The position numbers and the translations under genes were made by a program. From Ignavibacteria bacterium (lineage in GTDB: Bacteria; Bacteroidota; Ignavibacteria; Tepidaquicellales; Tepidaquicellaceae), in assembly GCA_036262055.1 (NCBI GenBank), contig DATAJP010000002.1, positions 950,177 to 1,014,176 of the forward strand: a stretch of DNA of 64,000 nt, in the 5' to 3' direction. The notes under the pieces were generated by a model. That model saw nothing but the letters and a program-made list of their open reading frames with translations. It searched no databases and was not told the DNA's origin. Shown here one piece after another: positions 16,492-58,728 of the stretch; the stretch's first letter is position 1; each line of letters opens with the position of its first letter.

Positions 16492-16507
16492 AATGTGCTA
16501 ATTAAAA

Positions 16508-17005: not shown

Positions 17006-17022
17006 AATTGTTAATTATTGGA

Positions 17023-17042
17023 ATTCCCGCCTTCGCGGGAAT
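17023..17042. repeat. Palindromic intergenic repeat, family A
   Basis: ATTCCCGC-CTTC-GCGGGAAT, a perfect 8-bp stem with a 4-base loop, followed by GAC. Equivalent hairpins occur at 32738, 33876 and 42170, always between genes. It could also stop transcription of the ppx-side genes, but no T-run follows. Confidence 0.85.
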
Positions 17043-17055
17043 GACTAAGTTAATT

Positions 17056-18805: not shown

Positions 18806-18852
18806 ATCTGCTGTATAAATCTACCATAAATTTACAAAAATTAACACAGATT

Positions 18853-19755: not shown

Positions 19756-19775
19756 TAAATTTTAAGTAAGGCAGG

Positions 19776-20867: not shown

Positions 20868-20897
20868 ATAAAAGAATAAAAAATTAAGTATGTATCG

Positions 20898-20951
20898 TTG
20901 GATTCTTCGTCACTTCATTCCTCTCCAAAAAAGTCCTTCGGACAGAATGAC
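20898..20951. repeat. Intergenic repeat, family B variant
   Basis: Holds GGATTCTTCGTCACTTCATT, then a stem-like AGTCCTTCGGACAGAATGAC. The ends GGATTCTTCG and CAGAATGACA match the family B copies at 29382 and 32776, but the middle is expanded. It lies between carA and the SPOR lipoprotein gene. Confidence 0.6.
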
Positions 20952-20957
20952 ACGCTG

Positions 20958-21401
20958 TTAAAATCTTTTCGTTCTTGTAAATGCATCGGTGAATCCGCGT
21001 CCGATAACAGTTGTCAGATAATTATTTGCTGTCTGAACGTCATCAAATGTTCCGACAGTAACTTTATAAAGTCCATCGAGCGGATCTAAAGTAACATCTA
21101 CTCTCAAATCAAGCTTTCCTCTTGCGTTTGCAGCAAGCCCGTCTGCATAATTTCTGTCTCTGAAGGCACCAATCTGAATTGTAACTTTATATGGAACCAC
21201 CTCTTCAACGATAACAGGGGGCATTTTAATTGTATCCTGAACATAAACCGGGTTTCCATCCGGTCCCAAAAGCTCACCGTTTGGTCCTACCATCAAATCA
21301 CAATCGGGACATGATGTGCCGCAGGAATTAAAAATTAATGCTGTCAGAGAAAGCAATAGAACAGGAAGCAGTAAACTAATTTTAGAATAAATGTTTCTCA
21401 T
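20958..21401 (-). CDS. SPOR-domain lipoprotein
   Basis: 147 residues. The lipobox is LIFNSC with lipidated C27; two further cysteines (C31, C34) follow closely. After a short linker comes a SPOR-type repeat (VTIQIGAFRDRNYADGLAAN, YKVTVGTFDDVQTANNYL). SPOR domains bind denuded glycan strands of peptidoglycan, commonly at division sites. It therefore probably tethers or senses the cell wall from the outer membrane. The gene is 5 bp downstream of the S9 peptidase gene, likely one transcript. Confidence 0.82.
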   Translation of the reverse strand: MRNIYSKISLLLPVLLLSLTALIFNSCGTSCPDCDLMVGPNGELLGPDGNPVYVQDTIKMPPVIVEEVVPYKVTIQIGAFRDRNYADGLAANARGKLDLRVDVTLDPLDGLYKVTVGTFDDVQTANNYLTTVIGRGFTDAFTRTKRF

Positions 21402-21406
21402 TTTTT

Positions 21407-23242
21407 TTATCTTAAATATTTATCTAAAAACTCAAGTTGTGTTTTAAAAGCTTTAATTGTGTTTGTAACTTTCGAGAACCCGTGTCCTTCATCCTCAAAG
21501 AGAACATATTCCACTTCTTTTCCGTTCTTTCTCAGCTTATCGACTATCTGAACAGATTCGTTTTCCACCACACGAGGGTCATGTTTACCCTGCATCACAA
21601 GCAGAGGACACTTTATGTTATCGATATAATTTATCGGCGAACGTTCTTCAAGAAACTTTCTATCTTTCTCAACGTCGCCGACTAATCTGGCAACTCCTTC
21701 TTTCCAGTGTTCCGGAACAGAATTAGCAAATGTTACAAGATTGCTGGGTCCGAAAATATCAATTGCGCATTTCCATAAATCGGGAGCTCGCGTAATACAG
21801 GTAAGAACCATAAATCCGCCAAAGCTTCCCCCGACGATTGCAACCTTTCCCATATTAACATAACCCGATTTTTCGAGAACTTCCATACTTTTAAGAACGT
21901 CCAGATATTCAGCGCCCCCGAAGTCACGGTATATCATTTTCTGGAAATTTTTGCCGTATCCAGTACTTCCTCTGAAATTTGGTGCAATGACAATATAACC
22001 ATTATTACAATAAATCTGAATATATTTGCTAAAATTATGCATTTCCTGCGCCTCAGGTCCGCCGTGAGGCCATAAAATCGCAGGATTTGAACCATCTTTT
22101 TTTAATCCTTTAGGAATATATAATAATGCATGTATTTCAAGGTCATCAAAACTTTTATAATAAACATCCTTAGGTTTGGTAAATGCTTGTTTGTTTATTC
22201 CGCCGACAAGTGAAAATGTTATCTGTTTAAGTCTTTTTGTTTTTATATTGTAGGTATAAATATCAGACGGGTTCAGCGGACTATCCAGAATAAAGACAAG
22301 CTTTTTATTATCAGAAGTAATATTAACGTTGCTATAATTTCCCTTTGGCAGTCTTAATTTTACTTTCTTTCCTGTTTTGAGATTTATCAGATGCGGGGTC
22401 TTGCTCGCATTTTTATTCACTACATAAACCATATACTTCCCATCTTTAGAAATTTTGTAAACTTCGATGTTGCCTCCGGATTTCAGAAACCATTTCGAAG
22501 AGTCTTTTTTAATATCGTAATATTTTATCCCTATAAATTCTCTTCCGCTGTCTGACAAATAATAAAACCCCGTCCCCTTATTATTGAATTTTGCATTTGA
22601 GTTAACTCCTCTTTCTTCTCCGTCAATTCCCGTTATCTGTTTGAACGAATCGTTATCGATATCATATAAAAACAAATCATGTTCAGAGTTTGAATAAACT
22701 TTGCTGTAAACTATATGCTTTTCATCAGGACTCCAGGCACTCGGCTCACAAATAACCTTTTCATCGAATGCTCTTACAAGTTTGTTTTCACCTGATTTTA
22801 AGTCTTTAATATAGGTATCGAAATTATATTTTAAACGCTTATTGGAAATAAATAAAAGCTTGTTGCCTTTTTTATTGAAGTCGGTATAAAAAGTCTGTGA
22901 ATCCTCAAAACCGTCTGAAAGATATTCAACTTCACCGCCTTTGTTAGAAGTCATAAAAATCTGATGATTCTCATTTCCGTCACGGTCACTGAGAAATAAA
23001 ATATTGTTTGTACCCGGCGAATGCATCAAATCCCTTACCGGCTGGTTCCACAACGTAATCTGGGTTGCCCATCCTCCGTTTACCGGAATAGACCATATTT
23101 GCGGAGAGCCTGTTGTATTTGTTATATAATAAATGGTTTTATTATCAGGTGACAGTGTATACCCTGTGATAGTTCTTACAGAATAAAACTGTTCTACAGG
23201 GTATTTTACTACACTTTCTTTCTTTTTCTTCTTGGTTGACAT
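21407..23242 (-). CDS. S9-family serine peptidase (prolyl-oligopeptidase/acylaminoacyl-peptidase type)
   Basis: 611 residues. The N-terminal beta-propeller has repeated strands such as GNKLLFISNKR, HIVYSKVYSN and KGTGFYYLSDSG. The C-terminal alpha/beta-hydrolase carries the triad Ser473 (VGGSFGGF), Asp555 (QGKHDPRV) and His587 (EDEGHGFSK). LWPHGGPEAQEMH forms the oxyanion region. No signal peptide is visible and the N-terminus is lysine-rich, so it should be cytoplasmic and trim peptides. It is divergent from the RodZ-like gene, with 168 bp between them. Confidence 0.92.
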   Translation of the reverse strand: MSTKKKKKESVVKYPVEQFYSVRTITGYTLSPDNKTIYYITNTTGSPQIWSIPVNGGWATQITLWNQPVRDLMHSPGTNNILFLSDRDGNENHQIFMTSNKGGEVEYLSDGFEDSQTFYTDFNKKGNKLLFISNKRLKYNFDTYIKDLKSGENKLVRAFDEKVICEPSAWSPDEKHIVYSKVYSNSEHDLFLYDIDNDSFKQITGIDGEERGVNSNAKFNNKGTGFYYLSDSGREFIGIKYYDIKKDSSKWFLKSGGNIEVYKISKDGKYMVYVVNKNASKTPHLINLKTGKKVKLRLPKGNYSNVNITSDNKKLVFILDSPLNPSDIYTYNIKTKRLKQITFSLVGGINKQAFTKPKDVYYKSFDDLEIHALLYIPKGLKKDGSNPAILWPHGGPEAQEMHNFSKYIQIYCNNGYIVIAPNFRGSTGYGKNFQKMIYRDFGGAEYLDVLKSMEVLEKSGYVNMGKVAIVGGSFGGFMVLTCITRAPDLWKCAIDIFGPSNLVTFANSVPEHWKEGVARLVGDVEKDRKFLEERSPINYIDNIKCPLLVMQGKHDPRVVENESVQIVDKLRKNGKEVEYVLFEDEGHGFSKVTNTIKAFKTQLEFLDKYLR

Positions 23243-29439: not shown

Positions 29440-30252
29440 ATGATAGACTATAAAACCCTAAAAAACAAAAAAACATTTTTTCTAATTGCAGGACCCTGCG
29501 TGGTTGAAAGCAAGGATTTGGTATTTAAAGTCTGCAATGAGCTGAAAAAAATTACAGACAAACAAAAAATTCCGTTTATATTCAAAGCATCATATTCTAA
29601 AGCAAACAGGACATCTGCAAAATCTTTCAGAACAATCGGAGTCGATAAAGCCCTTGAGATTTTATCAAAAGTTCGTAAAGAGTTTGATGTTCCTGTTTTA
29701 ACCGATGTTCACAGTGAGCTTGATGTCGAGCTTGCAGCAGATGTTGTCGATGTTTTGCAGATACCTGCGTTTCTTTCACGACAAACCGAACTCCTTGAAG
29801 CTGCCGGTAATACAGGAAAAATTGTCAACATAAAAAAAGGACAGTTTCTTTCACCGTTTGATATGCAATATCAGGCAGAGAAAGTTGCATTAACAGGAAA
29901 TAAAAAAATAATGTTAACTGAACGCGGCTCGACATTCGGCTATAACAATCTAGTTGTTGATTTTCGCGGATTGCCTGTAATGAAAAATTTCGGATATCCG
30001 GTTGTGTTCGATGCGACGCATTCTGTTCAGATGCCTTCAAAAGAAAACGGTGTGAGCGGAGGAAATCCCGAGTTTATCGAACCGCTTGCAAAAGCTGCAC
30101 TCGCGGCTGGCGCAGAAGGAATTTTTATTGAAACACATCCGAACCCTTCCAGAGCATTAAGTGACGGAAGCAACATGATAAAACTAACCAACGTTCAAGA
30201 TTTATTAATTAAACTGAAAAGAGTATTTAATGCCGTCAATAGCAAAGATTAA
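29440..30252 (+). CDS. kdsA: 3-deoxy-8-phosphooctulonate synthase
   Basis: 270 residues. FLIAGPCVVESKDLVFKV, FKASYSKANRTSAKSFR, TDVHSELDVELAADVVDVLQ and IPAFLSRQTELLEAAG are diagnostic. The late FIETHPNPSRALSDGSNM contains catalytic-site residues. It condenses arabinose-5-phosphate and phosphoenolpyruvate to Kdo-8-phosphate for lipopolysaccharide core, so the organism has, or descends from a lineage with, an LPS-bearing outer membrane. The next gene starts inside its last 23 bp. Confidence 0.96.
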   Translation: MIDYKTLKNKKTFFLIAGPCVVESKDLVFKVCNELKKITDKQKIPFIFKASYSKANRTSAKSFRTIGVDKALEILSKVRKEFDVPVLTDVHSELDVELAADVVDVLQIPAFLSRQTELLEAAGNTGKIVNIKKGQFLSPFDMQYQAEKVALTGNKKIMLTERGSTFGYNNLVVDFRGLPVMKNFGYPVVFDATHSVQMPSKENGVSGGNPEFIEPLAKAALAAGAEGIFIETHPNPSRALSDGSNMIKLTNVQDLLIKLKRVFNAVNSKD

Positions 30253-32665
30253 ACAAAAAAAACAAATCATAAACCCTGCAAATTATGCGGGAATATTCTT
30301 AATCGCCTCATCAACTTTACTCCTTGAATTCACACTTACAAGAATTCTCTCAATTGTTCTCTGGTATCATTTCGCGTTTATGGTTATCAGCGTTGCGCTT
30401 CTCGGTTATGGTATCAGCGGGACGTTTCTGGCAATCAACAACAAGCTGCGTGATTATAATATTGACAAACTCTTAACGTGGCTTTCGCTTGTCTTCGGGG
30501 TAAGCGTTTTGTTTATTTTTATTCTGATGAATAAAATTCCTTTTGACCCGTTTAGTTTATTCAGCGACAGCGTGCAGTTCTTTTATCTTCCGGTTTATTA
30601 TTTATTAATAACATTACCTTTTTTTATTTCGGGACTTATAATTTCTTTGCTGTTAACAAAGTTCAAGGGTGACATAAATAAATTATATTCTTATGATTTA
30701 ATTGGCGCAGGGCTTGCCTGCTTTGTGTTTGTTCTTGTGATGCCTGCATTCGGCGGAAACGGAACGATTGTGTTCGTAGCTATGGGCGGATTTTTAGCAG
30801 CTATTGTATTTGGAATTCAAAATCATAAGTGGCTCTCGCTTGTAAATTTTTTCTTAATCGGTTTTTGTTTCTTGTTTTTGGCTGACCGTGATAACATGCT
30901 TCCGATAAATTCGTCCCCGAATAAAATCTACGGCAACTTCTTAAAGCAAAATCCCGATAAAAAGCTTTTAACCGAATGGAATATCTTTTCCAAAGTTGAT
31001 GTAATGAAAGAAGACGGACCTTCTGAGGACGGTATCGATGTTTATACTGCAATCATAGATGACGGAAACGCAACAACCACGATTCCTAATGTTAAAGCTC
31101 TACCATTACCCAACAAACCCGCAGACGCATCTAACATGGCTTTTGCTCCGCTCGACTCTATTAATAGAGTGTTCATAATAGGTTCTGCAGGCGGCGGAGA
31201 AATTCTCACTAGTTTATATCATGATGCAAAAGATGTAACCGCAGTAGAGATAAATGGAGCAATAAATGATATTATACAAAATAAACTCCGTTATTGGACA
31301 GGACCCTTAATTAACGGTAACAAAAATGTTCGACTGATTACCGATGATGCGCGAAACATAATGAGCGGAAAAAGAATTGTTTATGATGTAATAATTTCAG
31401 CGCATACAATCTCTTCTTCGGCAATTTCAAGCGGAGCAATGAGCCTGGTTGAAAATTATATCTTGACACAGGAAGCAGTCGAAGAATATTTATATCATCT
31501 GAATAACAACGGCGGAGTTTTATATATTACAAGACCTGAAACACAAGTGCCGAAACTAATAACAACACTTCGCAAAGCACGAGAGAAAACTAGTCAGGGA
31601 ATTGAAAACAGCAAAAATTGTTTTATAATTTTCCGCAGACCACCGTCTGAATTCGAAGGTGAAAAAAGTTTTATGGGCGGGGTGCTTTATAAGAAAAACG
31701 GTTTTACCGAAGATGAAATCATTCGCGTAAAAAATGAAGCGGCATCGTTGAGTTTGAATATAGAATATGACCCGACCTCAAAACAGGAAGGACCATATAA
31801 AGAGTTAATAGAGACTGATAATCTTGATGGTGTAATAGCAAATTATAAAACCAATATTCAGCCGGCAACGGATAACAAACCTTATTTTGACGACAATCTT
31901 GGATTCGGAAGTTTATCCTGGGAAAACATGAGTGAGGTATTTAAGCAAAACGATAAGGCAATTCTTGCTTTGAAAGACAGACCCGTTGCGCAGACAACTT
32001 TGATTGTAATTTTAATTCAATCAATTGTCGCTGCTGCGTTTTTCATTTTGCTTCCTTTGAAATTCATAAAAGACAAAGGCGATAAAAAATTTAATAAGAG
32101 CTATCTGGTTTATTTTGCTTGTCTTGGGCTTGGATATATAATGATACAGGTCAGCATGATTCAGAAGTTCACGCTGTTTCTCGGACAGCCTGTTTATACA
32201 TTGCTGACTGTTATTTCAACGATGTTGATATTTTCAGGTTTTGGGAGCATGTTCTCAACTAAATTTTTCAAGGGCTCAAATAAAAAACTTATAATTATTT
32301 TCAGCATAATAGCACTGTTTGTAATAGCAATAGGAATTTTAAACCCGATTTTATTTTCATCATCGGTTAGAATGGAAATTCATTGGAGAATATTAATCAC
32401 TGTCGCAATGATTGCACCGCTTGGCTTCTTTATGGGAATGCCATTCCCGATTGGCTTATCGCTCATTGGCGATAATCAGAAAAAGTTTGTTGCTCTCTCA
32501 TGGGGAGTGAACGGATTTTTCAGCGTCATCGGAACTGTTATGACTATTATGCTTGCAATGACAACAGGATTTATGTTTGTGTTTATCCTGAGCGCGTTGA
32601 TTTATGCAATAGCAATGATTTTTATTTTAAAACAAAACAGGTTTGTGATACAAACTCAAGGTTAA
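30230..32665 (+). CDS. Spermidine-synthase-like membrane protein
   Basis: 811 residues. About six N-terminal membrane helices (roughly 15-220) are followed by a soluble Rossmann domain, with a SAM-site-like GSAGGGEILTSLYHDAKDVT and acidic VEIN at strand 2. About six more helices follow near the C-terminus (residues 590-800), such as GFFMGMPFPIGLSLIG. The layout matches MFS-fused spermidine-synthase homologues, which often lack proven aminopropyltransferase activity. It overlaps kdsA by 23 bp, so coupling to an envelope pathway is possible. Its acceptor and biological role are unknown. Confidence 0.75.
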   Translation: MPSIAKIKQKKQIINPANYAGIFLIASSTLLLEFTLTRILSIVLWYHFAFMVISVALLGYGISGTFLAINNKLRDYNIDKLLTWLSLVFGVSVLFIFILMNKIPFDPFSLFSDSVQFFYLPVYYLLITLPFFISGLIISLLLTKFKGDINKLYSYDLIGAGLACFVFVLVMPAFGGNGTIVFVAMGGFLAAIVFGIQNHKWLSLVNFFLIGFCFLFLADRDNMLPINSSPNKIYGNFLKQNPDKKLLTEWNIFSKVDVMKEDGPSEDGIDVYTAIIDDGNATTTIPNVKALPLPNKPADASNMAFAPLDSINRVFIIGSAGGGEILTSLYHDAKDVTAVEINGAINDIIQNKLRYWTGPLINGNKNVRLITDDARNIMSGKRIVYDVIISAHTISSSAISSGAMSLVENYILTQEAVEEYLYHLNNNGGVLYITRPETQVPKLITTLRKAREKTSQGIENSKNCFIIFRRPPSEFEGEKSFMGGVLYKKNGFTEDEIIRVKNEAASLSLNIEYDPTSKQEGPYKELIETDNLDGVIANYKTNIQPATDNKPYFDDNLGFGSLSWENMSEVFKQNDKAILALKDRPVAQTTLIVILIQSIVAAAFFILLPLKFIKDKGDKKFNKSYLVYFACLGLGYIMIQVSMIQKFTLFLGQPVYTLLTVISTMLIFSGFGSMFSTKFFKGSNKKLIIIFSIIALFVIAIGILNPILFSSSVRMEIHWRILITVAMIAPLGFFMGMPFPIGLSLIGDNQKKFVALSWGVNGFFSVIGTVMTIMLAMTTGFMFVFILSALIYAIAMIFILKQNRFVIQTQG

Positions 32666-43759: not shown

Positions 43760-44692
43760 TTAATCTATTGTAAAATAATCTGCCGATTGATAATATCCGG
43801 TTTTTTGTTTTTGATACTGCATTAACAAATCATTCAACAGCGAGCTCGCGCCGATACGGAACATATTTGCATTCATCCAGTCAGCACCGAGTGTTTCATT
43901 CAACAATACAAGATACGCAATCGCATCTTTTGTTGTTCTTATTCCGCCTGCAGGTTTCATTCCTATCATTATGCCCGTTTCATCAAAGTAATCACGAATC
44001 GCCTCGAACATCACAAGTGTCACAGGCAGTGTTGCTGCCGGTTGAACTTTCCCCGTAGATGTTTTTATGAAATCTGCGCCTGCCATCATTGCAAGAAAAC
44101 TTGCAATGCGAACGTTGTCGAATGTTTCAAGTTCACCTGTTTCTAAAATTACTTTAAGATGAACATTGGTATTTAATTTCTTTGATTCCTCAACGCATGC
44201 TTCTTTCACTGCTTTTATTTCATTATACACAAATTCATAATCACCTTGCAAAAACTTTCCGCGTGAAATTACCATGTCGATTTCATCTGCCCCTTCTCGT
44301 ATTGCTTCAATTGTGTCCTTGATTTTCAGTTCAGTCGGATATTGCCCTGATGGAAACGAAGTCGCAACCGATGCAATGTGTATTCCACTTCCTATAAGAA
44401 ATTTTTTCGCAGAAGCAATCAGGTTCGGATAAACACAAACCGCCGCTACATGCGGAATATCGGTATTGCCCGGCATAGGGAACTTTGCCTTCTGGCATAA
44501 AGAAAAAACTTTACCAACGGTATCTTTTCCTTCGAGGGTCGTCAGGTCAATCATCGAAACCGCGAGCTTTATGAAATCAAGCTTTGTTTCGTTCTTTATG
44601 CTTCTCGATGCCAAAAACGCAGCACGCTCCTTTGTCCCTATTTCATCTATAGGATTATTAAACTTTTTTATGAAACTTGAGATGCTATTCAT
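43760..44692 (-). CDS. deoC: Deoxyribose-phosphate aldolase
   Basis: 310 residues, the long form. The Schiff-base lysine is in ADFIKTSTGKVQPAAT, and KPAGGIRTTKDAIAYL and DEIDMVISRGKFLQGDY are aldolase blocks. It splits deoxyribose-5-phosphate to glyceraldehyde-3-phosphate and acetaldehyde. The aldehyde dehydrogenase downstream fits a linked route to acetate. The start is 56 bp from the divergent secreted-protein gene. Confidence 0.93.
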   Translation of the reverse strand: MNSISSFIKKFNNPIDEIGTKERAAFLASRSIKNETKLDFIKLAVSMIDLTTLEGKDTVGKVFSLCQKAKFPMPGNTDIPHVAAVCVYPNLIASAKKFLIGSGIHIASVATSFPSGQYPTELKIKDTIEAIREGADEIDMVISRGKFLQGDYEFVYNEIKAVKEACVEESKKLNTNVHLKVILETGELETFDNVRIASFLAMMAGADFIKTSTGKVQPAATLPVTLVMFEAIRDYFDETGIMIGMKPAGGIRTTKDAIAYLVLLNETLGADWMNANMFRIGASSLLNDLLMQYQKQKTGYYQSADYFTID

Positions 44693-44748
44693 TTGTATAA
44701 AGCTAAATAAATTAATAATTTTATTATATTGATAAACAACTGCATAGA

Positions 44749-45351
44749 ATGAAAATTTTGCCGGTAATTGTATTTTTTTTGGCTACCCAATGCGCTTTCT
44801 CACAGACCGAACGTCTTCCTATCCCTGGAATATTTAATACGGGAGTAAACGGTAATAATCAATTATTAGCTGATGGCGAGGTGGATTTGCATTACAAATT
44901 GGTTTCAAGTGATGATTCACAATATCCCGGTCCCGATGCTTTTATCCCGGCATCCGATATATGGCCGATTGGACAGTGGATTCCAAACGGACCCGAATCA
45001 AAATGGATTGCTCCCAGATTCGATGCAGATAAATTTAATGCATCAGGATATTATGTTTACAGGTTAACTTTTGACCTAACCTCATTTCACTATAACACAG
45101 CCGAAATCGGAGGGATTTGGTCAACTGACAATAACGGAATGGATATTTTAATTAATGGTACCTCAACTGGATTTCAAACACCATTTGAATCATTCTATGG
45201 TATCTCACCTTTCTTTATTAATACTGGTTTTCAACCGGGACTTAATACTATAGATTTTATTGTTTACAACGGTCATGCTCCCACCGGTTTACGCGTTGAA
45301 ATAAAAGGCACAGCCGTGCCTTTGAATGTCGCATTTAATAATCAAAAATAA
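44749..45351 (+). CDS. Secreted beta-sandwich protein, unknown function
   Basis: 200 residues with a signal peptide (ILPVIVFFLATQCAFSQ). The mature part begins IPGIFNTGVNGNNQLLADGE followed by VDLHYKLVSS, an opening seen in PEP-CTERM-type and other surface proteins whose module resembles a carbohydrate-binding jelly roll. DMGD-like calcium motifs are absent. The C-terminus (GTAVPLNVAFNNQK) is not a sorting signal I recognise. It precedes the hydrolase cluster on the same strand by 95 bp, but no functional link is shown. Confidence 0.65.
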   Translation: MKILPVIVFFLATQCAFSQTERLPIPGIFNTGVNGNNQLLADGEVDLHYKLVSSDDSQYPGPDAFIPASDIWPIGQWIPNGPESKWIAPRFDADKFNASGYYVYRLTFDLTSFHYNTAEIGGIWSTDNNGMDILINGTSTGFQTPFESFYGISPFFINTGFQPGLNTIDFIVYNGHAPTGLRVEIKGTAVPLNVAFNNQK

Positions 45352-45446
45352 ATTAATAAGTTTTTTCATTTCTTTTTCAAAAACGTTAGTTTTTCTTTCT
45401 TAACAAATTTTTATTTATATTTATTATTCAAATAAAATTGAAACTA

Positions 45447-46541
45447 ATGAAAAAACTTTTAAGGGTGCTAAAGGTTTTACCTGTAATTTTATTTTTAAAC
45501 ACTTCTTTTTTATTCTCGCAAACACTTCCTGAAAAGCTCGATGCAGTGACCGATTCATTAATGACTGCAACAAAAATTCCCGGCATGATTGTTTCTCTTG
45601 TTTGCGGTGATTTCAAATGGGAAAAAGCAAAAGGTTTTGCTGATGTTTATGGCAATGTTCCGATGACTCTCGATAAAACATTCAGAATAGGAAGCGTTAC
45701 AAAAACATTTACAATTACAACTCTGCTTCAGCTTGTCGATGAAGGTTTATTAAAACTCGATGATCCTGTCAATAAATATTTTGATAATATTCCCAATGGC
45801 GACAGAATAACGGTGCGCATGCTTGCCGAAATGACAAGCGGGTTATATAATTATTCCGACACAAAAGATTTTGAGGATTCTTTAACGAATAATCCTCATA
45901 AAAGATGGAAAAATGAAGAGCTTCTTGAAATGGCTTTCAGATATCCGGTTTATTTTGAGCCGAATACGGATTTTCACTACTCGAATACCAATACCATTCT
46001 AATCGGAATGATTATCGAAAAACTCACAGGAAAAACAATAGGGCAAAACATAACAGAAAGAATTATAAATAAACTTGGATTAAAAAACACCTATGTCCCT
46101 GAAAATTATGTGATACCCGGTGATTATGCACACGGTTATAATAATATCGAAGATTCGATTACCATTCCATATGTTGATGTAACTGAAATGTATGACCCAT
46201 CATGGGCAGGTGCTGCAGGTGATATTATTTCAAATGTGAATGATTTAAAAATTTATATCCGCGCAATGGCTAAAAACCAGCTTTATTCTCCTCAAATGCA
46301 GGCAGAAAGAATGAAATGGACTCCGTTCATTCCTGCAAGCACAGGACTTAAATACGGATTGGGGATGTTCGAAATCGAAGGAAGCTATATCGGACACAAT
46401 GGAGGTATTCCGGGATTTGCAAATGTAACCGCTTATTCTCCTGTGCAGGATTGCTCTATAATAGTAATGTACAATGCAAAATCTAAACTTGCAGCTGACC
46501 CGCTTGCAAAACGAATTTTGCAAATTATGAATGGTAATTAG
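45447..46541 (+). CDS. Exported serine hydrolase, class C beta-lactamase fold (tandem copy 1)
   Basis: 364 residues from the ATG at 45447; a TTG three codons earlier is less likely. A signal peptide ends at LFSQ. The catalytic SxxK is S83-V-T-K86 (RIGSVTKTFT), then the tyrosine motif in HYSNTNTILIGMI and the late HNGGIPGF in place of KTG. The fold covers penicillin-binding proteins, esterases and D-amino-peptidases, so the substrate could be peptidoglycan or an ester. First of four paralogues; the next gene follows 120 bp later. Confidence 0.9.
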   Translation: MKKLLRVLKVLPVILFLNTSFLFSQTLPEKLDAVTDSLMTATKIPGMIVSLVCGDFKWEKAKGFADVYGNVPMTLDKTFRIGSVTKTFTITTLLQLVDEGLLKLDDPVNKYFDNIPNGDRITVRMLAEMTSGLYNYSDTKDFEDSLTNNPHKRWKNEELLEMAFRYPVYFEPNTDFHYSNTNTILIGMIIEKLTGKTIGQNITERIINKLGLKNTYVPENYVIPGDYAHGYNNIEDSITIPYVDVTEMYDPSWAGAAGDIISNVNDLKIYIRAMAKNQLYSPQMQAERMKWTPFIPASTGLKYGLGMFEIEGSYIGHNGGIPGFANVTAYSPVQDCSIIVMYNAKSKLAADPLAKRILQIMNGN

Positions 46542-46661
46542 AAATTAATAAATATTAGAAAGCAGTTTCTTTATATTGTTATATCCTGACTCAATTGTAC
46601 ATTTATACATTTGTACATTCATAAACCGGTCTCAATTTTTATTCACATTTAAAACCAAAAC

Positions 46662-47774
46662 ATGAAAAACTTTATTTATTCCGCAGTAATAATTTTCACT
46701 CTTATTTTTATGGGGAACATTTTTTCATGTTCACAGCCAAAAAACACAGACCGGCTAAATGCTATCTTAGATTCCGCAATGGCAAATGCCAATATCCCGG
46801 GATTGATGGTATCAATTGTTTGCGGTGATTTCAAATGGGAGCAGACACGCGGATATAGTGATTTCAATAACAAAACCCCGATGGATTTAAATAAAGTTTA
46901 TAGAATCGGGAGCATTACAAAAACTTTTACCATCACTGCTGTATTTCAGCTTATCGATGAAGGAAAGCTTTCGCTTGATGATAAGATTAATCAATATTTG
47001 GATGGAATACCGAACGGGGATAAAATAACGATAAGGCAGCTTATGAACATGACATCGGGATTATATAATTATTCCGAGTCAAAAGATTTTTCTGATACTT
47101 TGAAATCTAATCCCGGAAAACAATGGACTCCCGATGATGCTCTTGCAATGGCTTTCAAGTATCCTGTATATTTTGAACCCGGAACCGGCTTTCATTATTC
47201 AAATACAAACACAATTGTTTTAGGCAAGCTTCTTGAAAAGCTCACGGGAAAAACCGTTGCAGAAAATATCACCGAACGAATAATAAAACCGCTTGGACTT
47301 AAAAATACTTATGTAGTAAATAAAACCACGATGCCTGCAGAGTATATTCACGGTCACAGTGAAAGCTTCACTAATCCCAAAGAATATTATGATGTATCCG
47401 AAGTTTATAATTCCTCTCTCGCTGGCGCAGCGGGAAACATTGTTTCCAACATCAATGATTTAAATATATATATTCGAGCTCTTGCAAAAGGCAAGTTAAT
47501 TTCCGCGAAAAGCCAGGCAGAAAGAATTCAATGGACTCCGCTTGATAAGGATGACCCAAATTCGCAATATGGATTGGGAATGGCAAATTTTTTCGGAGGC
47601 TATTACGGACATAATGGAGGTATTCCCGGATTTGTAGATATTGCCGTTTATTCACCGGAAAAAGACTGTTCTATTGTTATGATGTATAATATATTTACAA
47701 TGTTTGGCAATCAACTCCCAAATCCTTTTCCTGATGCAGTCGCAAAACAATTGCTTGCGGCAATAGGCAAATAA
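46662..47774 (+). CDS. Serine hydrolase lipoprotein, class C beta-lactamase fold (tandem copy 2)
   Basis: 370 residues. Unlike the other copies, its signal ends in a lipobox-like IFSC (C23), so it is probably lipidated. SxxK is S84-I-T-K87 in RIGSITKTFT, the Tyr motif is HYSNTNTIVLG, and HNGGIPGF is kept. A SIVCGDFKWEQTRGYSDF block aligns closely with copies 1 and 3. It lies 10 bp before copy 3, so the two are likely cotranscribed. Confidence 0.9.
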   Translation: MKNFIYSAVIIFTLIFMGNIFSCSQPKNTDRLNAILDSAMANANIPGLMVSIVCGDFKWEQTRGYSDFNNKTPMDLNKVYRIGSITKTFTITAVFQLIDEGKLSLDDKINQYLDGIPNGDKITIRQLMNMTSGLYNYSESKDFSDTLKSNPGKQWTPDDALAMAFKYPVYFEPGTGFHYSNTNTIVLGKLLEKLTGKTVAENITERIIKPLGLKNTYVVNKTTMPAEYIHGHSESFTNPKEYYDVSEVYNSSLAGAAGNIVSNINDLNIYIRALAKGKLISAKSQAERIQWTPLDKDDPNSQYGLGMANFFGGYYGHNGGIPGFVDIAVYSPEKDCSIVMMYNIFTMFGNQLPNPFPDAVAKQLLAAIGK

Positions 47775-47784
47775 AAAAATACTC

Positions 47785-48885
47785 ATGAAAAAAATAGTAT
47801 TTGTGTTAAACTTTTTTCTGTTGGTTTTATTTTTAAATGTCACCCAGGTATCTTCCCAGACAATTACCGAAAAGCTAGATGCATTGACTGATTCCGTATT
47901 GGCAAATTCCACTCTTCCCGGTATGATAGTTTCGGTTGTATGCGGAGATTTCAAGTATGAAAAAGCAAAGGGATATGCAGATGTTCTAAACAAAATTCCC
48001 ATGACGCTTGATAAAACATTCAGAGCAGGTAGCATGACAAAAACTTTTACGGTAACAGTGCTTATGCAGCTAGTCGATGAAGGTAAGGTATCTCTTGATG
48101 AAACAATCAGCAAATATTTTTCAGGGATTCCAAACGGAGATAAAATTACTATCAGGATGCTTGCCGGAATGACAAGCGGATTACCTAACTATTCTGTTTC
48201 AAAAGATTTTGCAGATACTTTAAATAATAATCCTCATAAAAAATGGACAAGTGATGATGCGCTTGAAATGGCATTCAAAAACCCTGTTAATTTTGAACCC
48301 GGAACGAATTATGATTATTGTAATACTAATACAATAATAATAGGAAAACTTATTGAAAAGCTTACAGGAAAATCACTTAGAGAAAACACATATGAAAGAA
48401 TCATAAACCCTCTCGGATTGAGAAACACATATATCCCTGAAAGTTATCAAATACCGGGAGACTATGCGCACGGCTATGATAAAAAAGATAATGCGGTTCT
48501 TGTTGATGTTACCGAAACATATGACCCTTCATGGGGTGGCGCAGCGGGTAACATAGTTTCCAATGTTCACGATTTAAATATTTATATCCGGGCTCTTGTA
48601 AAAGGACAGCTTCATTCATCGCAGATGCTGGCAGAAAGAATGAAATGGAATTCCTTTGATATGGATAACCCTATGGAAAAATATGGATTAGGAATGTTTA
48701 TTGCCAATGATAAGTATATCGGGCACGATGGTGGGATTCCCGGTTTCAGCAACATAACAGTCTATTCACCGGAAAAAGATTGTTCAATGATTATAGTATA
48801 TAATGAATATACTCTTTATGCAGGCCTCAAAAATCCCGTTCCTAACTTTTTAGTTGAACCGATAGACAATATCATTAATAAATAA
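47785..48885 (+). CDS. Exported serine hydrolase, class C beta-lactamase fold (tandem copy 3)
   Basis: 366 residues with a Sec signal ending near VSSQ. SxxK is S83-M-T-K86 (RAGSMTKTFT). The tyrosine motif reads YDYCNTNT where others have HYSNTNT, and the late triad is HDGGIPGF rather than HNGGIPGF. Both changes sit at the active site, suggesting altered specificity. Copy 4 starts 9 bp downstream. Confidence 0.9.
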   Translation: MKKIVFVLNFFLLVLFLNVTQVSSQTITEKLDALTDSVLANSTLPGMIVSVVCGDFKYEKAKGYADVLNKIPMTLDKTFRAGSMTKTFTVTVLMQLVDEGKVSLDETISKYFSGIPNGDKITIRMLAGMTSGLPNYSVSKDFADTLNNNPHKKWTSDDALEMAFKNPVNFEPGTNYDYCNTNTIIIGKLIEKLTGKSLRENTYERIINPLGLRNTYIPESYQIPGDYAHGYDKKDNAVLVDVTETYDPSWGGAAGNIVSNVHDLNIYIRALVKGQLHSSQMLAERMKWNSFDMDNPMEKYGLGMFIANDKYIGHDGGIPGFSNITVYSPEKDCSMIIVYNEYTLYAGLKNPVPNFLVEPIDNIINK

Positions 48886-48894
48886 AAAAAAATT

Positions 48895-49974
48895 ATGAAA
48901 AAACTTTTCCTCACAATTGTAATTTTATTTTTTAGTATTTCAGTTGTTTCTGCACAAACGCTTACAGATAAAATTGATGCTGTTGCTGATTCCGTTATGG
49001 CGAATACCAATCTTCCGGGAATGATAATATCGGTTGTTTGCGGTGATTTCACTTATGAAAAAGCAAGAGGATATGCCGATGTTATGAATCAGCAGCCGAT
49101 GACTCTCGGTAAAACTTACAGAATCGGCAGCGTTACAAAAACATTTACCATTACAGCTCTGCTTCAGCTTGTTGATGAAGGCAAGTTAAAGCTTGATGAC
49201 CCGATAAGCAAGTTTTTTCCTGATTTTCCAAACGGAGATAATATAACCGTAAGGATGCTGGCAAATATGACAAGCGGCATTTATAACTTTACCGAGACAG
49301 AAGAATTTAATGATACATTGGAAAATCGCCCATTAAAAAAATGGACTGAAGAAGACGCTCTTGAGCTTGCCATAAAATATCCACCGTATTTTGCGCCCGG
49401 AACTGATTTTCATTATTCCAATACCAATACAATTATGATTGGAATGATTATTGAAAAATTAACAGGCAACAGTCTTGCTGATGAAATCAACAAAAGAATA
49501 ATTGCTCCTCTTGGCTTAAAAAACACCGTAATACCAACTAACCAATACATTCCCGGAGATTATTCTCACGGTTATAATGCAGGGGATTCGCTTGTTCTTC
49601 CATATGATGACAACACGACAAAATATGACCCTTCATGGGCAGGCGCTGCAGGAGACATAATTTCAAACATCGAGGATATTAAAGTTTATATAAAAGCACT
49701 TGGCAGCGGCTCTATGATTTCAAAAGAAATGCAGAATGAAAGATTGAAATGGGCTGCATCGCTGATGGGCGGTCAAATGGGATACGGGCTTGGAATTTTT
49801 AAAGTTCGGGATAACTATTACGGACATAACGGAGGCATTCCCGGTTTTACAAATTTAAGCGTATATTCTCCTGAAAAAAATTGTTCTGTCATCGTAATGT
49901 ATAATGTGCAGATTAGTAATTTATCACCTGATAGGCTGGCACTGAGAATTATTGACATAATGAACGGTCAATAA
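48895..49974 (+). CDS. Exported serine hydrolase, class C beta-lactamase fold (tandem copy 4)
   Basis: 359 residues. The signal peptide ends at VVSAQ. S79-V-T-K82 (RIGSVTKTFT), HYSNTNTIMIGMI and HNGGIPGF are intact. It shares the long blocks of the other copies but is shorter between the catalytic motifs. It ends the tandem array; a convergent leftward small membrane-protein gene follows after 18 bp. As with the siblings, the substrate is not known. Confidence 0.9.
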   Translation: MKKLFLTIVILFFSISVVSAQTLTDKIDAVADSVMANTNLPGMIISVVCGDFTYEKARGYADVMNQQPMTLGKTYRIGSVTKTFTITALLQLVDEGKLKLDDPISKFFPDFPNGDNITVRMLANMTSGIYNFTETEEFNDTLENRPLKKWTEEDALELAIKYPPYFAPGTDFHYSNTNTIMIGMIIEKLTGNSLADEINKRIIAPLGLKNTVIPTNQYIPGDYSHGYNAGDSLVLPYDDNTTKYDPSWAGAAGDIISNIEDIKVYIKALGSGSMISKEMQNERLKWAASLMGGQMGYGLGIFKVRDNYYGHNGGIPGFTNLSVYSPEKNCSVIVMYNVQISNLSPDRLALRIIDIMNGQ

Positions 49975-49992
49975 ATTAACAGGCCAAAATCA

Positions 49993-50175
49993 TTAATCGT
50001 TCTTCAGAACTTTTATCATCAGCATTATTAACCCGAAGCTTACAACGATAAACGTTGATGCAATTACTAAATCTGATTTAAGCTCATCACTGAAGCTGAC
50101 CGGGACATTGAGCAGAAAGAACAAGCCAACTACAGTGATGACAAACGCAGGTATTACAAAAATTAATGTTCTCAT
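49993..50175 (-). CDS. Small two-helix membrane protein
   Basis: 60 residues: helix one FVIPAFVITVVGLFFLL, a short acidic loop, helix two VIASTFIVVSFGLIMLMI. A Shine-Dalgarno TAGGAG lies about 7 bases before ATG, unlike most genes here. Last gene of the leftward stress-like operon. Function unknown. Confidence 0.6.
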   Translation of the reverse strand: MRTLIFVIPAFVITVVGLFFLLNVPVSFSDELKSDLVIASTFIVVSFGLIMLMIKVLKND

Positions 50176-50202
50176 TTTTTTCTCCTATAAAATGATTATA
50201 AA

Positions 50203-50367
50203 TTAGTTTTTAAACATTCGTATTATCAAAGCGATAACCGCAACTATTGCTATGACGATTATTATCCCGACCCAGATGCCTGCTTTAAAAATATCACCGA
50301 TGAGTTCGCAGCCCGGATAACAAAGCGCGCTTAAAAATAAAATTGTGTATAATATTAGTCTGTTCAT
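50203..50367 (-). CDS. Small membrane (lipo)protein, 54 residues
   Basis: The ATG at 50367 is preferred over the upstream in-frame one (50421), because the latter lies inside the previous gene and adds a charged stretch before the signal. MNRLILYTILFLSALCYPGC looks like a lipobox signal with C20, then a single helix from WVGIIIVIAIVAVIALII. Tiny proteins of this pattern (CELIGDIFKAG then WVG) are common in Bacteroidota. Function unknown. Confidence 0.6.
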   Translation of the reverse strand: MNRLILYTILFLSALCYPGCELIGDIFKAGIWVGIIIVIAIVAVIALIIRMFKN

Positions 50368-50371
50368 TTTT

Positions 50372-50836
50372 TTAATTTCCCGATTTAATTTTTTGATTAT
50401 GTCTGTTTTCTGCTTCTTCAATTGAATGTGATTCTGTTATATGAACTTCCTTTCCATATAACTTCGAAAGTTTTATGTAATGAGATTTTAATGTCTGCAA
50501 ATCTTTTTCATTTAAATCTTCTGCATCAATGAGACGGTTGCTTGCGCCGTTTATTGCCGCAATTATTTCATTCAATTTGAGCTGTACTGCAAGCGAATCT
50601 TTATTTTGAGTCCTCTGAATTAAAAATACCATAAGAAAAGTAATTATTGTCGTGCCGGTATTTATTACTAATTGCCATGTTTCGGAAAATCCGAACATTG
50701 GTCCTGTTAAAGCCCATACAATTACTATTGATAAGGCTAAAATAAATGCTGTAGTTCCTCCGCTAAACTTAGTTAGCATAACGGCAACTTTTTCAAAAAA
50801 ATTATCACCTTTTTTAATTGTTGAATTCTTAGCCAT
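50372..50836 (-). CDS. Low-affinity iron permease family membrane protein (PF04120-like)
   Basis: 154 residues. Two helices (TTAFILALSIVIVWALTGPM and LVINTGTTIITFLMVFLIQ) precede the family-typical QRTQNKDSLAVQLKLNEIIA and a soluble tail. Iron transport is only the family name; activity in bacteria is not well established. Its start overlaps the dehydrogenase gene by 8 bp, so it is coupled to the stress-like operon. Confidence 0.82.
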   Translation of the reverse strand: MAKNSTIKKGDNFFEKVAVMLTKFSGGTTAFILALSIVIVWALTGPMFGFSETWQLVINTGTTIITFLMVFLIQRTQNKDSLAVQLKLNEIIAAINGASNRLIDAEDLNEKDLQTLKSHYIKLSKLYGKEVHITESHSIEEAENRHNQKIKSGN

Positions 50837-53540: not shown

Positions 53541-56500
53541 ATGATTGTACCTTCAAAATTAAGAAGCTCTTTTAATAAAAATATTTCCGGATTCACGGCA
53601 AGACTGCCGTTAGAAAAATTTATTCCTGCAACATTTTTCGTTTTCCTGCTGTGCATTATAATAATGAGTATAATTATTTATAGAAACATTGATGAATACA
53701 GGACAAACATTAACAGGATAAATCACTCAAATGAAATAATGAAAGAAAATGCAGCTATAGGAATTTCAGCTGCATATCTGCCCGCTCTAAGACGTGAATA
53801 TATAAATTCCGGAAATGGAAAATTTCTTAATAATTATAATTCTCAAAAAGATTCTCTTCTTTCAAAAATCAGCCATATAAAAAAATTAACATCTGCCAAT
53901 CCGGTTCAACAGAATCTGATATGGATTTTAGATTCATTGATTAATTCAAACATACAAATTCTTGATAATTCGATATATCAATACCATCAGAATAACGGAC
54001 TTTCCTTAGCACAGGATGAAATAAATAATCTGATTAGGCATAAGCTGCTTGAAATAGCCGTGGTTACAAAAGCAATTGAAGATGAAGAAGCTCGTTTACT
54101 TCATCAGGAAATGTCAGAGTCGGAAAGAACAAACCGGAACTCACAGATATTTATCATAGCGACGAGTTTGTTTTCTTTTATTATTATTGGATTTTCGTTA
54201 TATGTATCCAACAAGCTAATAAAAAATAAAAATCAGACGGAACGTCTGCTTGTAAAATCATATGATGAGCTTGAAGACAAGGTTGATGAAAGAACTCATG
54301 AGCTAAAAATGTCAAATGAAAAATTAAAAGATGAAATTACGTCGAGAAAAAAAATTGAGGCATCATTAAGAGAGAGCGAAAAACGTTTCAGGACTCTTGC
54401 GGATTCTGCTCCTATTTTAATATGGATGGCAGACGAGGATAAATTATGCAATTACTTTAATAAAATTTGGCTGGACTTTACTGGAAGGTCGCTTGAACAA
54501 GAATTAGGAAATGGATGGGCTGAAGGTGTTCATCCGGATGATTTACAGAGATGCATGGATATGTATACAACTGCATTTGACAGGAGAGAAAAATTTCAAA
54601 TGGAATACCGGTTGAGAAATTATGCCGGTGATTATTGCTGGATATTGCATAAGGGTGTTCCTCTGTATGAAGGGAATGAGTTTATAGGATATATAGGCGG
54701 TTGTATAGATATAAACGAAAGAAAGAAAACTGAACAGTTCCTGAACATACAGTATATAATTTCTAAAATTCTGGCAGAAGAGCATTCGCTTGAGATTGCT
54801 TCAAGGAAAGTGCTTGAAGAAATTTGCCATGCAGTAGGTTGGGATTTCGGAATCTTATGGATTGTTGAAAACGAAAAACTAATAGTGGAAGCGCTCTGGA
54901 GCTCCGATAAAGATGAAAAATTAAAATATTCATTAATGGAAGACCGCAGCCGCGAAATCAATAAAGGCGACGGTCTGCTTGGCAGAGTCTGGGAAAATAA
55001 ATCTGCTTTATGGATTCCTGTTATTCATAAAGAACAACAATTCGTAAGGAAAAATGAAGTTATTGCAATGGGCTGGAATTCAGTATTTGCCACGCCTATT
55101 ATGAATGAAAACGCCGTTATTGCAATTATTGAATTTTTTAATAAAGACATATCCACTCCTAACAAGGAAATGATTAACGTGCTTGAGGCAATCGGCAGGC
55201 AAATAGGAAATTATATCGAAAGAAAAAAAGCTGAAGAACAGCTTAATTCATATCATGAGGACCTGGAAGGAAAAGTCAAAGAAAGAACTATTGAGCTTGC
55301 CAATACATTGCAAAAGTTAATAAGTGAGATTGATGAAAAGGAAAAAATCCAGAACAGGCTGAAATTATTTGCGCATGCCGTAAGGGGCATTAAGGAATGT
55401 ATTTACATAACAGACCTTAAGAATAATGTAATTTTCGTAAACAGCGCATTTGAAAAAATTTATGGATATTCGGAAGAAGAAACTAAAGGAAAAGAAATTC
55501 CTATTCTAACTGCAAAACATATTTCCGATGAAAAAAGGAATGAAATCCTTCAAGGCACTATGAAGGGCGGTTGGAAAGGCGATTTTTTAACAACAAGAAA
55601 AGATAACTCTGAGTTTTATGTTTCTCTATCGACAACAACTATCAAAAATGATGAAGGTGATATAGAGGCGATTATAGGCATATGCCAGGACGTAACGGAG
55701 AATAAGCAGAATCAAGAACTGATAAATAAACGTTATAGTCTTTTAAATCTGTTAAATGATGTAATGAAGGTTACAAATAAAACGTTTAACTTGAATGAAG
55801 CAATTCAACATGCTGTTAATAAAGTCTGCCAATATACAACCTGGGATATAGGTCATTGTTATTTATCTAAGAATAATCAACTGGAATCTTGTGCAATATG
55901 GAATGAAGATTTGAACCCGGTTTACAACGAGTTTAAAGTTCTGACAAGGGACATAATTTTTCAAAGTGGTGAAGGACTGCCGGGGGCAACTTTAGAAACC
56001 GGAAAACCTTTTTGGATAAAGATAGATGATTTAATCGACATTAATAAATATAAACGGGCGAAGTTAGCAAAATCTGCAGGATTATCAACCGGCATATGGG
56101 TACCTATTATTAAACAAAATGAAACTGTTGGTGTTCTGGAATTCTTTAAGAAAGACAAATATAATCTTGATAATGAAATGCTTGAATGCCTCGTAAATAT
56201 TGGCTTGGAAATAGGAAGCGTGCTTGAAAGAGATGAAATTATAACAAAAATCAGAGAGAGTGAAAAATTGCTTATTGATGCTCAGCATATTGCCAAACTT
56301 GGAAGCTGGGAATGGGATGTTCAAAACAATACGGTTTCTTGGTCAAGCGAACTTTATGAAATTTATGAACGTAAGCCCGAAGACATTGATTTGGACTATG
56401 AGTCATTCCTATCGGTTAATCATCCTGACGACGTAGAATATACAAAACAAATTATCGGCAAAGCATATCTTGACAAAGAACCGTTCGATTATTTTCATAG

Positions 56501-57395
56501 GATTGTCACACCGGACAATAAAGTAAAAACAGTAAAGTCTACCGGTGAAGTATTTACCGATGCTGAAGGCAATATTACAAGGATGTTTGGAACGTGTCTG
56601 GATGTAACAGAAATAAAAGAAACTGAAAAAAAATTAAGAGAAAGTGAAGAAGAACTTAGAAAAGCTAACATAAAATTAATCGAAACACAGAAGGAACTTA
56701 TTCATAATGAAAAGCTTGCTGCGCTCGGAAGATTCTCATCGGGTATAGCTCACGAAATCAGAAATCCTCTTGCAAACATAAGAGGATTGGCACAGATGGT
56801 TTCACGCGCAAACGTCGATGAAAAGCTTGAAAAACATCTGAATTACATTATGATAAATGTCGATTTAGCAAACAACATTATAAAAGATTTATTGGACTTT
56901 GCCTCGCCTGAAGACTTAGCTTTTAGGGAAGAAAACATTCGTGAAATTATAAATAACATAGTTGAAAGCGTAAAACCTGCTTTCTCTGAAAAAAATATAA
57001 ATATAATACTGGATATTCCGGATAATCTTCCGAATATTGAAGTAGATAAATTAAAGCTTGAGAATGCATTTTTAAATTTTGTATTTAATGCAAAAGATGC
57101 AATGCCTGACGGAGGTAAGATTACAATAACCGTGAGACATGATAAAGATACCGATGAATTAATACTTTATTTCACAGATACGGGAATAGGAATTGCGCAG
57201 GAAAATCTGGATAAAATTCTTGAGCCGTTTTTTACAACTAAAAACACCGGAACAGGTTTGGGCTTAAGTCTTGCTTACCAAACTGTTAAATCGCATGACG
57301 GCGGATTCAACATCAGGAGCGCCGTTGGAAAAGGAACACAGATAGAAATTAAATTACCAATAAAAAATAATAATGGAAAAAATATTAATAGTTGA
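53541..57395 (+). CDS. Large hybrid-input sensor histidine kinase (2 TM, 3 PAS, 2 GAF)
   Basis: 1284 residues. Order: helix about 28-48, a periplasmic segment resembling CHASE3 (50-200), helix about 203-224, a coiled coil, PAS1 (about 280-395), GAF1 (about 405-562), coiled coil, PAS2 (about 605-720), GAF2 (about 735-895), PAS3 (about 905-1035), then HisKA with H1071 ([14 protein letters not shown]) and HATPase ([25 protein letters not shown]). No receiver domain is attached. It should autophosphorylate and donate to the NtrC-like protein encoded by the next gene, whose start overlaps its last 23 bp. The many input domains suggest integration of several signals. Confidence 0.93.
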
Positions 57396-58728
57396 TGATA
57401 ATGAATATTTAAGATTTACTTTGTCAGAGCTTCTCGAAGGCGCGGGATTTGCTGTAACAGCCGTTGAGGATGGCGGCGATGCAATACGGCAGGTGAAAGA
57501 ACAGCCGTATTCTCTTGTCATACTTGATATGAAGCTGAAAGAAATGGACGGGAGTGAAGTGCTGAGGAGAATTAAATCAATAAAAGAATCTCTCCCTGTA
57601 ATAATACTTACAGCGTTTGGTGATATTAAAAGCGCTGTAGAGACCATAAAGATGGGAGCAAATGATTATATCACAAAGCCCTTTGACAATGATGATATGC
57701 TTAAAGTTATAAGGAAAACCCTCGAAATGAATTATCTCAATCAGGAAGTTAATATATTGAGAAAAAAGATGGAGGAGGCATATAAATCGGGCGACGTTGT
57801 CGGCAAAAGCAAGGTTATGCTGGACGTATTTGAGCAAGTTAAAATAGTTGCGCCGACTAACTTAACTGTTATGATTGAAGGTGAAAGCGGAACAGGAAAA
57901 GAAATTATTGCAAACATGATTCACAGATTAAGCGACAGAAATAAAAATGCTCTCATTTCAGTTGACTGCGGTGCAATTCCCGACACTCTCATTGAAAGCG
58001 AGCTTTTCGGTCATGAAAAAGGAGCTTACACAGATGCGAAAAATATGAAGGAAGGAAAGTTTGAGCTTGCTAATAACGGAACAATCTTTCTTGATGAGAT
58101 TACAAACCTTTCAGATTCAAACCAGATAAAGCTTTTAAGAATCATTCAGGAAAGAAAAGTTACGCGCCTTGGTTCCAAAAAGCCGATTGATTTGAATGTA
58201 AGAATCATTGTTGCATCAAATATACGTTTGAGCGATGCTGTAAACAATAAAACTTTCCGTCATGACTTGTATTATCGTTTAAATGAATTTCATATTGACC
58301 TTCCGCCCCTTCGTGAAAGAAAAGATGACATCCCTTTGTTTGTTGAATATTTTATTAAAGATGCAAATAAAGAACTTAATAAATCTATCAGAGAAGTATC
58401 ACCGGTTATAATGGAAAAATTGATGAATCATAGCTGGCCCGGTAACGTGCGTGAGCTTAGAAATGTGATTAGAAGGTCTGTCTTGCTTTCTCTAACTCCT
58501 GTTATTAATACGATTCAGATACCTGATGATATTATGCGTATGCCTCAACAGGAATCTGCCGTTGAAAACGATAAATTTTCCATTAAACATTCAACCAAAG
58601 CTGTTGAAAAAGAATTAATTATTAAGGCACTTAATGAAAGCGGAGGAAATAAATCGAAAGCCGCTAAAATTCTCAATATGAATGAGCGGACATTTTACAG
58701 AAGACTAAAAAGTTTGGGGATTGAATAA
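57373..58728 (+). CDS. Sigma-54-dependent NtrC-family response regulator
   Basis: 451 residues. Receiver with phosphoacceptor D52 (LVILDMKLKEMDG), AAA+ domain with Walker A GESGTGKE (170-177), Walker B TIFLDEI, and a Fis-type helix-turn-helix (GGNKSKAAKILNMNERTFYR). The sigma-54-contacting loop is GAYTDA (217-222) instead of GAFTGA; Tyr is tolerated, Asp at the fifth position is unusual. It activates promoters of the -24/-12 class, several of which I find nearby. Translationally coupled to the kinase. Confidence 0.94.
   Translation: MEKILIVDDNEYLRFTLSELLEGAGFAVTAVEDGGDAIRQVKEQPYSLVILDMKLKEMDGSEVLRRIKSIKESLPVIILTAFGDIKSAVETIKMGANDYITKPFDNDDMLKVIRKTLEMNYLNQEVNILRKKMEEAYKSGDVVGKSKVMLDVFEQVKIVAPTNLTVMIEGESGTGKEIIANMIHRLSDRNKNALISVDCGAIPDTLIESELFGHEKGAYTDAKNMKEGKFELANNGTIFLDEITNLSDSNQIKLLRIIQERKVTRLGSKKPIDLNVRIIVASNIRLSDAVNNKTFRHDLYYRLNEFHIDLPPLRERKDDIPLFVEYFIKDANKELNKSIREVSPVIMEKLMNHSWPGNVRELRNVIRRSVLLSLTPVINTIQIPDDIMRMPQQESAVENDKFSIKHSTKAVEKELIIKALNESGGNKSKAAKILNMNERTFYRRLKSLGIE

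Follow-up and report, generated by a model that had tools for sequence, protein, structure and literature searches.

We consider it likely that four tandem genes in the window, the 64,000-nucleotide stretch of Ignavibacteria bacterium DNA analyzed here, arose by old local duplications of a gene that relatives carry as a single copy, and that they encode exported peptidase family S12 hydrolases that act through an acyl-enzyme, most likely on D-amino-acid peptides or amides. The initial annotation had described four paralogous, same-strand genes of about 360 residues, encoding exported serine hydrolases and separated by 9–10 bp between copies 2, 3, and 4, and this description held (Table 1). The gaps between copies 1/2, 2/3, and 3/4 are 120, 10, and 9 bp, respectively, and an in-frame TTG is also present for copy 1 at 45438. 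The proteins (359–370 aa) are 50–61% identical across the six copy pairs (copies 2, 3, and 4 are 52, 61, and 61% identical to copy 1, respectively). A hydrophobic, signal-like segment is found at the N-terminus of all four copies, which, with the family matches below, supports their reading as putative exported serine hydrolases. Three of the sequence blocks listed as shared (TKTFT, TNT, and GGIPGF) were found in all four copies. The remaining block, VVCGDFK, does not stand as a common block, being exact in copy 3 only and taking the forms LVCGDFK, IVCGDFK, and VVCGDFT in copies 1, 2, and 4, respectively.

Table 1. Features of the window discussed in the text, by position; residue numbers are those of each protein.
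Feature	Position	Strand	Length or remark	SxxK, YxN, and HxG motifs
Genes with homologues near the G003 orthologue	16057-23242		some 22-30 kb from the array	
Genes with homologues near the G017 orthologue	16057-18805			
ORF	30230-32665		811 aa; no Pfam match at E 0.001	
Protein upstream of copy 1, signal-like start	44749-45351		200 aa; no Pfam or NCBIfam match at E 0.001	
Promoter-like site (10 of 12)	45400-45427		shortly before copy 1	
Copy 1, S12-type serine hydrolase, signal-like N-terminus	45447-46541	+	364 aa	SVTK (S83, K86), YSN (Y178, N180), HNG (H317)
Gap between copies 1 and 2	46542-46661			
Copy 2, S12-type serine hydrolase, possible lipoprotein	46662-47774	+	370 aa	SITK, YSN, HNG
Copy 3, S12-type serine hydrolase	47785-48885	+	366 aa	SMTK (S83, K86), YCN (Y178, N180), HDG (H314)
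Copy 3 YxN codons (Y178-C179-N180)	48316-48324	+	calculated from residue numbers	
Copy 3 HxG codons (H314-D315-G316)	48724-48732	+	calculated from residue numbers	
Copy 4, S12-type serine hydrolase	48895-49974	+	359 aa	SVTK, YSN, HNG
Large sensor kinase	53541-58728		CHASE3, GAF, several PAS, HisKA, HATPase	

By profile, by motif, and by fold (the last from the model of copy 3 only), the array belongs to peptidase family S12 (PF00144, the class C beta-lactamase fold) as AmpH-type class C PBPs. PF00144 matched all four copies (E 4.5e-58 to 1.5e-60) over most of each protein's length, with scores of 197–206 bits against a curated cut-off of 27. This family is common, and matches were found in 39 of the 40 relatives searched. 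Scores for two equivalog models from NCBIfam fell far below their cut-offs (76–91 of 415 bits for the class C beta-lactamase model NF033085 and 86–102 of 443 bits for the D-aminopeptidase model NF009622), which argues against labeling the copies as AmpC beta-lactamases or as D-aminopeptidase equivalogs. By sequence, the solved structures nearest to the array are those of alkaline D-peptidase (4y7p, 1.5e-62) and the R61 DD-peptidase (about 4e-60).

The SxxK, YxN, and HxG motifs, as defined in PMC4570186, are intact in all four copies. The strings YDYCNTNT and HDGG had been read correctly in copy 3, but the active-site drift proposed from them is mostly wrong, as the catalytic residues of this copy are complete and its variants recur among homologues. 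We compared 164 homologous rows, an uneven sample drawn from similarity-fetched loci (80 of 181 confirmed) and from loci found in genome searches, in which identical proteins were counted once and L031–L034 and L161, from the same genome and overlapping the window, were omitted. YCN was found in 14 of the 164 rows and HDG also in 14 of 164, with copy 3 counted in both and a gap at HxG in 16 rows. Only one row besides copy 3, L113 from Pseudonocardia acaciae, combines the two. YCN and HDG are ordinary family variants that affect the middle letters of the motifs only, and variation of this kind should not be taken for active-site decay.

Real decay, with copy 3 (or copy 2) catalytically impaired and serving as a regulator or binder, is very improbable. 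Copy 3 does carry YCN, HDG, and SGLP where the other copies have YSN, HNG, and SGLY or SGIY, and Tajima tests with three outgroups found more changes in copies 2 and 3 than in copy 4. The excess of copy 2 over copy 4 gave chi2 values of 9.9, 30.4, and 11.9 and that of copy 3 gave 9.0, 9.9, and 0.65, so that copy 3 exceeds copy 4 with two of the three outgroups; copy 2 also exceeded copies 1 and 3 clearly with two outgroups and weakly or not at all with the third (L041). Against decay, the motif Ser, Lys, Tyr, Asn, His, and Gly are all there, the variant motifs recur as counted above, and none of the four reading frames is broken, dN between copies being 0.28–0.44 against a dS of 1.2–1.9 that is itself near saturation.

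Judged from their synonymous sites, the duplications are old. Copy pairs are 0.34–0.47 identical at four-fold degenerate sites, where about 0.34 is expected at saturation from codon usage, and this rules out the recent duplication that the initial annotation had favored. Pairs 1–4 and 2–4 (both 0.47) are somewhat above the saturation level, so we describe these sites as near saturation. Protein identity between the paralogues is only slightly above that to same-family orthologues of other genera (40–57%), and the copies are nearly as far apart as they are from those orthologues. The orthologues of genomes G006 and G018, which belong to a neighboring genus, share 82% of their protein sequence, yet their identity at four-fold degenerate sites has already fallen to 0.43. 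We do not claim gene conversion among the copies: the longest identical run was ordinary in five of the six pairs (permutation p 0.21–0.39), and the 25-base run shared by copies 1 and 2 (p 0.004) depends on collapsing the gap columns, measuring 17 bases in the gapped alignment.

A profile built from the four copies gave ten matches in the genome. The array copies matched at E <= 1.3e-202, scores raised by their own presence in the profile, and the next best match was at 2.3e-39. Orthologues from other genera scored between 2.9e-149 and 3.3e-116 with the same profile, so the gap to the genome's other six family members is not due to profile construction alone. In a 60-row tree, the four copies and the genes of G006, G018, G003, and G017 formed one starred group of eight, and the other six members of the genome were placed outside of it; relative to these six, the copies did not fall apart as independent origins would have them do. 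At E <= 1e-60, 23 of 44 genomes of the order (source genome included) had a match to the array profile. A close orthologue (E <= 3.3e-116) was present in 11 of these genomes, one in each, and the other 11 had weaker matches, G005 with two on different contigs. In a sample of 391 genomes from the class, matches at E <= 1e-85 were found in 24, and only the source genome had more than one, a count in which up to five candidates were scored per genome under a strict threshold and weaker second copies elsewhere would be missed. No such fourfold local expansion turned up in the relatives searched, and the local duplication claimed at the outset is lineage-restricted across these 44 genomes of the order and 391 of the class.

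Clusters of family members do occur elsewhere, which makes the arrangement of the array not unusual in kind. Locus L062 of G006 has two neighboring family genes on one strand, as in the array, and L107 has four, the latter of mixed subgroups; both clusters differ from the array in lying outside its group of eight. Three neighboring family genes were found in L140, one of them on the opposite strand. The pair in L062 (57–2877) is a separate tandem pair belonging to another subgroup of the family. A literature search, judged by titles and the starts of abstracts, gave nothing on point concerning members of this family that are arrayed in tandem or expanded in number.

A more careful tree joined copy 1 with copies 2 and 3 (moderate support of 84/92, below the star level of the tool) and left the order of branching between copy 4 and the orthologues unresolved. 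Constraining the four copies to one clade was 6.2 log units worse and narrowly escaped rejection (p-AU 0.056), and such a clade occurred in none of 200 bootstrap trees. Part of the duplication may therefore predate the split from the sister genera, with losses there. In its full form this becomes an ancient array, in which copy 4 separated from the lineage of copies 1–3 earlier than the genera of the family diverged and losses then reduced the relatives to a single gene, and we consider it possible but somewhat unlikely. The position of copy 4 outside copies 1–3 and the near-saturated synonymous sites fit such a history, as does the quick 60-row tree, which put the G006/G018 gene beside copies 1–3 (support 90), and the picture was similar when copy 2 was dropped and copies 1, 3, and 4 were constrained to one clade (p-AU 0.19). 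Repeated losses would be needed, however, as the 11 genomes that carry a close orthologue show no further match at E <= 1e-60. Holding copies 2, 3, and 4 together was likewise not rejected (p-AU 0.0795, 16.5 log units), so the branching order within the array is weakly known. We prefer old local duplications within the source lineage, which would have started from the gene that is single-copy in relatives. Copy 4, which has the highest identity of the four to each of seven orthologues compared, is possibly the founder.

Copy 2 is the most divergent member of the array. Its end branch is the longest of the four (0.63, the others being 0.26–0.30), and it has a Leu in place of a nearly constant pocket Trp. 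For the R61 enzyme, PMC4570186 assigns Trp233 to the lining of the P1 pocket, Arg285 to binding of the C-terminal carboxylate, and Thr299 and Thr301 to the P1' pocket. Copies 1–4 have W, L, W, and W in the Trp233 column, F, A, F, and F in the Arg285 column, N, N, D, and N in the Thr299 column, and G throughout in the Thr301 column. The replacement of Arg285, Thr299, and Thr301 in all four copies means that a specificity like that of R61, a D-Ala-D-Ala carboxypeptidase, is not supported. In the first two columns, each of the 11 close orthologues reads W and F. Among the 112 rows scoring above 200 bits, the Trp233 column holds W in 99 and L in two, copy 2 being one of the two; the Arg285 column, which has a gap in 16 rows near indels, holds F in 28, A in 27, and R in one. 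The Leu of copy 2 is thus rare in the family and its Ala common, unusual only within the close group, which weakens one of its two pocket changes as evidence. We infer that copy 2 is the best candidate in the array for a changed substrate preference, and its pocket is a better sequence hint than the copy 3 motifs at the possible division of labor that the initial annotation had proposed.

The N-terminus of copy 2 may also set it apart. Its signal-like segment ends in a Cys (IFSC followed by SQP), and similar boxes (FISC, FNSC, and FFGC) were found among candidate lipoproteins selected by an ad hoc rule in the window and four other loci. In the orthologues of G006 and G018, however, a similarly placed Cys (SASC followed by FSQ and FAQ, respectively) comes just before an apparent ordinary signal-peptidase I site. 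A lipoprotein is plausible for copy 2. An elaboration that we think unlikely holds that the copies are periplasmic D-peptide hydrolases with divided specificities, in which copies 1, 3, and 4 would have a narrow P1 pocket with Trp, copy 2, possibly membrane-anchored and without both pocket aromatics (Trp to Leu and Phe to Ala), would take bulky D-residues, and copies 2–4 would share one transcript.

A pair of cysteines was observed elsewhere in the proteins. Cys53 and Cys336 (numbered as in copy 1) are both present in seven of the 164 rows, C336 occurs alone in 10, and C53 alone in none. In the copy 3 model, these residues are at the end of strand 46–53 and the start of strand 333–339, and a cross-strand disulfide between them is possible in the predicted structure. 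The orthologue in G018 has Ser at 53 and keeps C336.

The short gaps between copies 2, 3, and 4 are compatible with their co-transcription, as first proposed, and it is this spacing that suggests a single transcript. Simple scans of 44650–50500 gave no excess of promoter-like sites (25, with 25.0 in shuffled sequences) or terminator-like sites (three, with 4.1 in shuffled sequences). One of the best-scoring promoter-like sites lies immediately before copy 1, all three terminator-like sites are within copy 2, and the gap between copies 1 and 2 contained neither kind of site in these scans. The Bacteroidota-type promoter pattern is TTTG/TAnnTTTG. A scan of the window for this pattern found four sites, with 5.4 expected by chance, and none was near the array.

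The flanking genes give no pointer to a shared pathway. Beyond the 200-residue protein upstream of copy 1 are genes for a DeoC-family aldolase and an aldehyde dehydrogenase on the other strand, and the genes that follow the array downstream encode a member of the low-affinity iron permease family and a short-chain dehydrogenase, also on the other strand. No homologues of the flanking genes (ORFs of at least 100 aa) were found around the orthologues in G006, G003, G018, and G017, where the G018 contig ends about 200 bases past the gene and the G017 contig is only 8.7 kb. The orthologues in G003 and G017 (loci L157 and L159) are instead near homologues of window genes that lie well upstream of the array (Table 1), the G017 contig being short. 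The window also contains a long ORF without a Pfam match and a large sensor kinase, whose ORF has a 23-bp overlap with the start listed for the ORF of a sigma-54-dependent response regulator.

The four copies are most likely active exported D-stereospecific peptidases or amidases. The signal sequence would probably be removed, and each enzyme would act at the cell surface or within the periplasm. Ser83 would attack the substrate carbonyl to form an acyl-enzyme, helped by Lys86, Tyr178 (numbered as in copies 1 and 3), and the HxG histidine, after which water would free the product. The substrates would most likely be short D-amino-acid peptides or amides, either peptides from peptidoglycan turnover or scavenged D-peptides. 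Activity is not readable from sequence, because the fold is common to esterases, ClbP, LACTB, and DltE, and the predicted fold of copy 3 alone does not give its substrate. CcEstA, another family member, is described as an esterase in PMC5131357. The copies could accordingly be esterases or other acyl hydrolases or transferases rather than D-peptidases, a reading made conceivable by this shared fold, which extends to a macrolactin acyltransferase, and by the loss of the carboxylate-binding Arg285 of R61. We judge it improbable, as the best sequence and fold matches are D-stereospecific peptidases and amidases, the HxG motif is as in D-stereospecific enzymes, and the Trp233 column is kept in copies 1, 3, and 4.

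With four intact paralogues in one genome and single-copy orthologues as a reference, the array forms a natural series in which to follow how specificity changes among S12 hydrolases. It is otherwise an ordinary paralogue family, in which an old local expansion to four copies has left the active sites of a known type of enzyme intact.

We compared the AlphaFold2 model of copy 3 (32 sequences, mean pLDDT 92.1) with solved structures using VIA-align, treating rows within one Z unit as tied. The R61 enzyme (3pte; Z 45.0, 1.8 A, 329 residues) and the alkaline D-peptidase ADP (4y7p; Z 44.9, 2.0 A, 329 residues) tied for the best match. Other D-stereospecific hydrolases and amidases came next (Z 43–44), then a phage tail protein (40.9), and esterases, LACTB, ClbP, and AmpC were lower matches; the top ranks from Foldseek agreed.

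ADP from Bacillus cereus DF4-B shares with the array the family, the SxxK/YxN/HxG tetrad, and the fold as predicted for copy 3, to whose model it is 33% identical in the structural alignment. PMC4570186 gives Met, Tyr, Gly, and Ser in ADP at the positions of R61 Trp233, Arg285, Thr299, and Thr301, so copies 1, 3, and 4 resemble ADP in having an aromatic residue in place of Arg285, whereas copy 2 differs with its Ala. ADP also differs in having Met245 at the P1 position, where copies 1, 3, and 4 have Trp and copy 2 has Leu, and in having HGGS where the array copies have HNGG or HDGG. The R61 DD-carboxypeptidase/transpeptidase of Streptomyces (3pte, 1ikg) has the same family, tetrad, and fold (copy 3 model) in common with the array, and is further alike in its YSNTN block (YCNTN in copy 3) and in the Trp233 of copies 1, 3, and 4, but differs from all four copies at Arg285, Thr299, and Thr301. 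The remaining D-stereospecific relatives, dHy1 (9s7k), the Streptomyces sp. 82F2 enzyme (3wwx), and the Ochrobactrum D-amino acid amidase (2dns, 2drw), belong to the same family, match the fold at Z 43–44, and are 28–33% identical to the copy 3 model.
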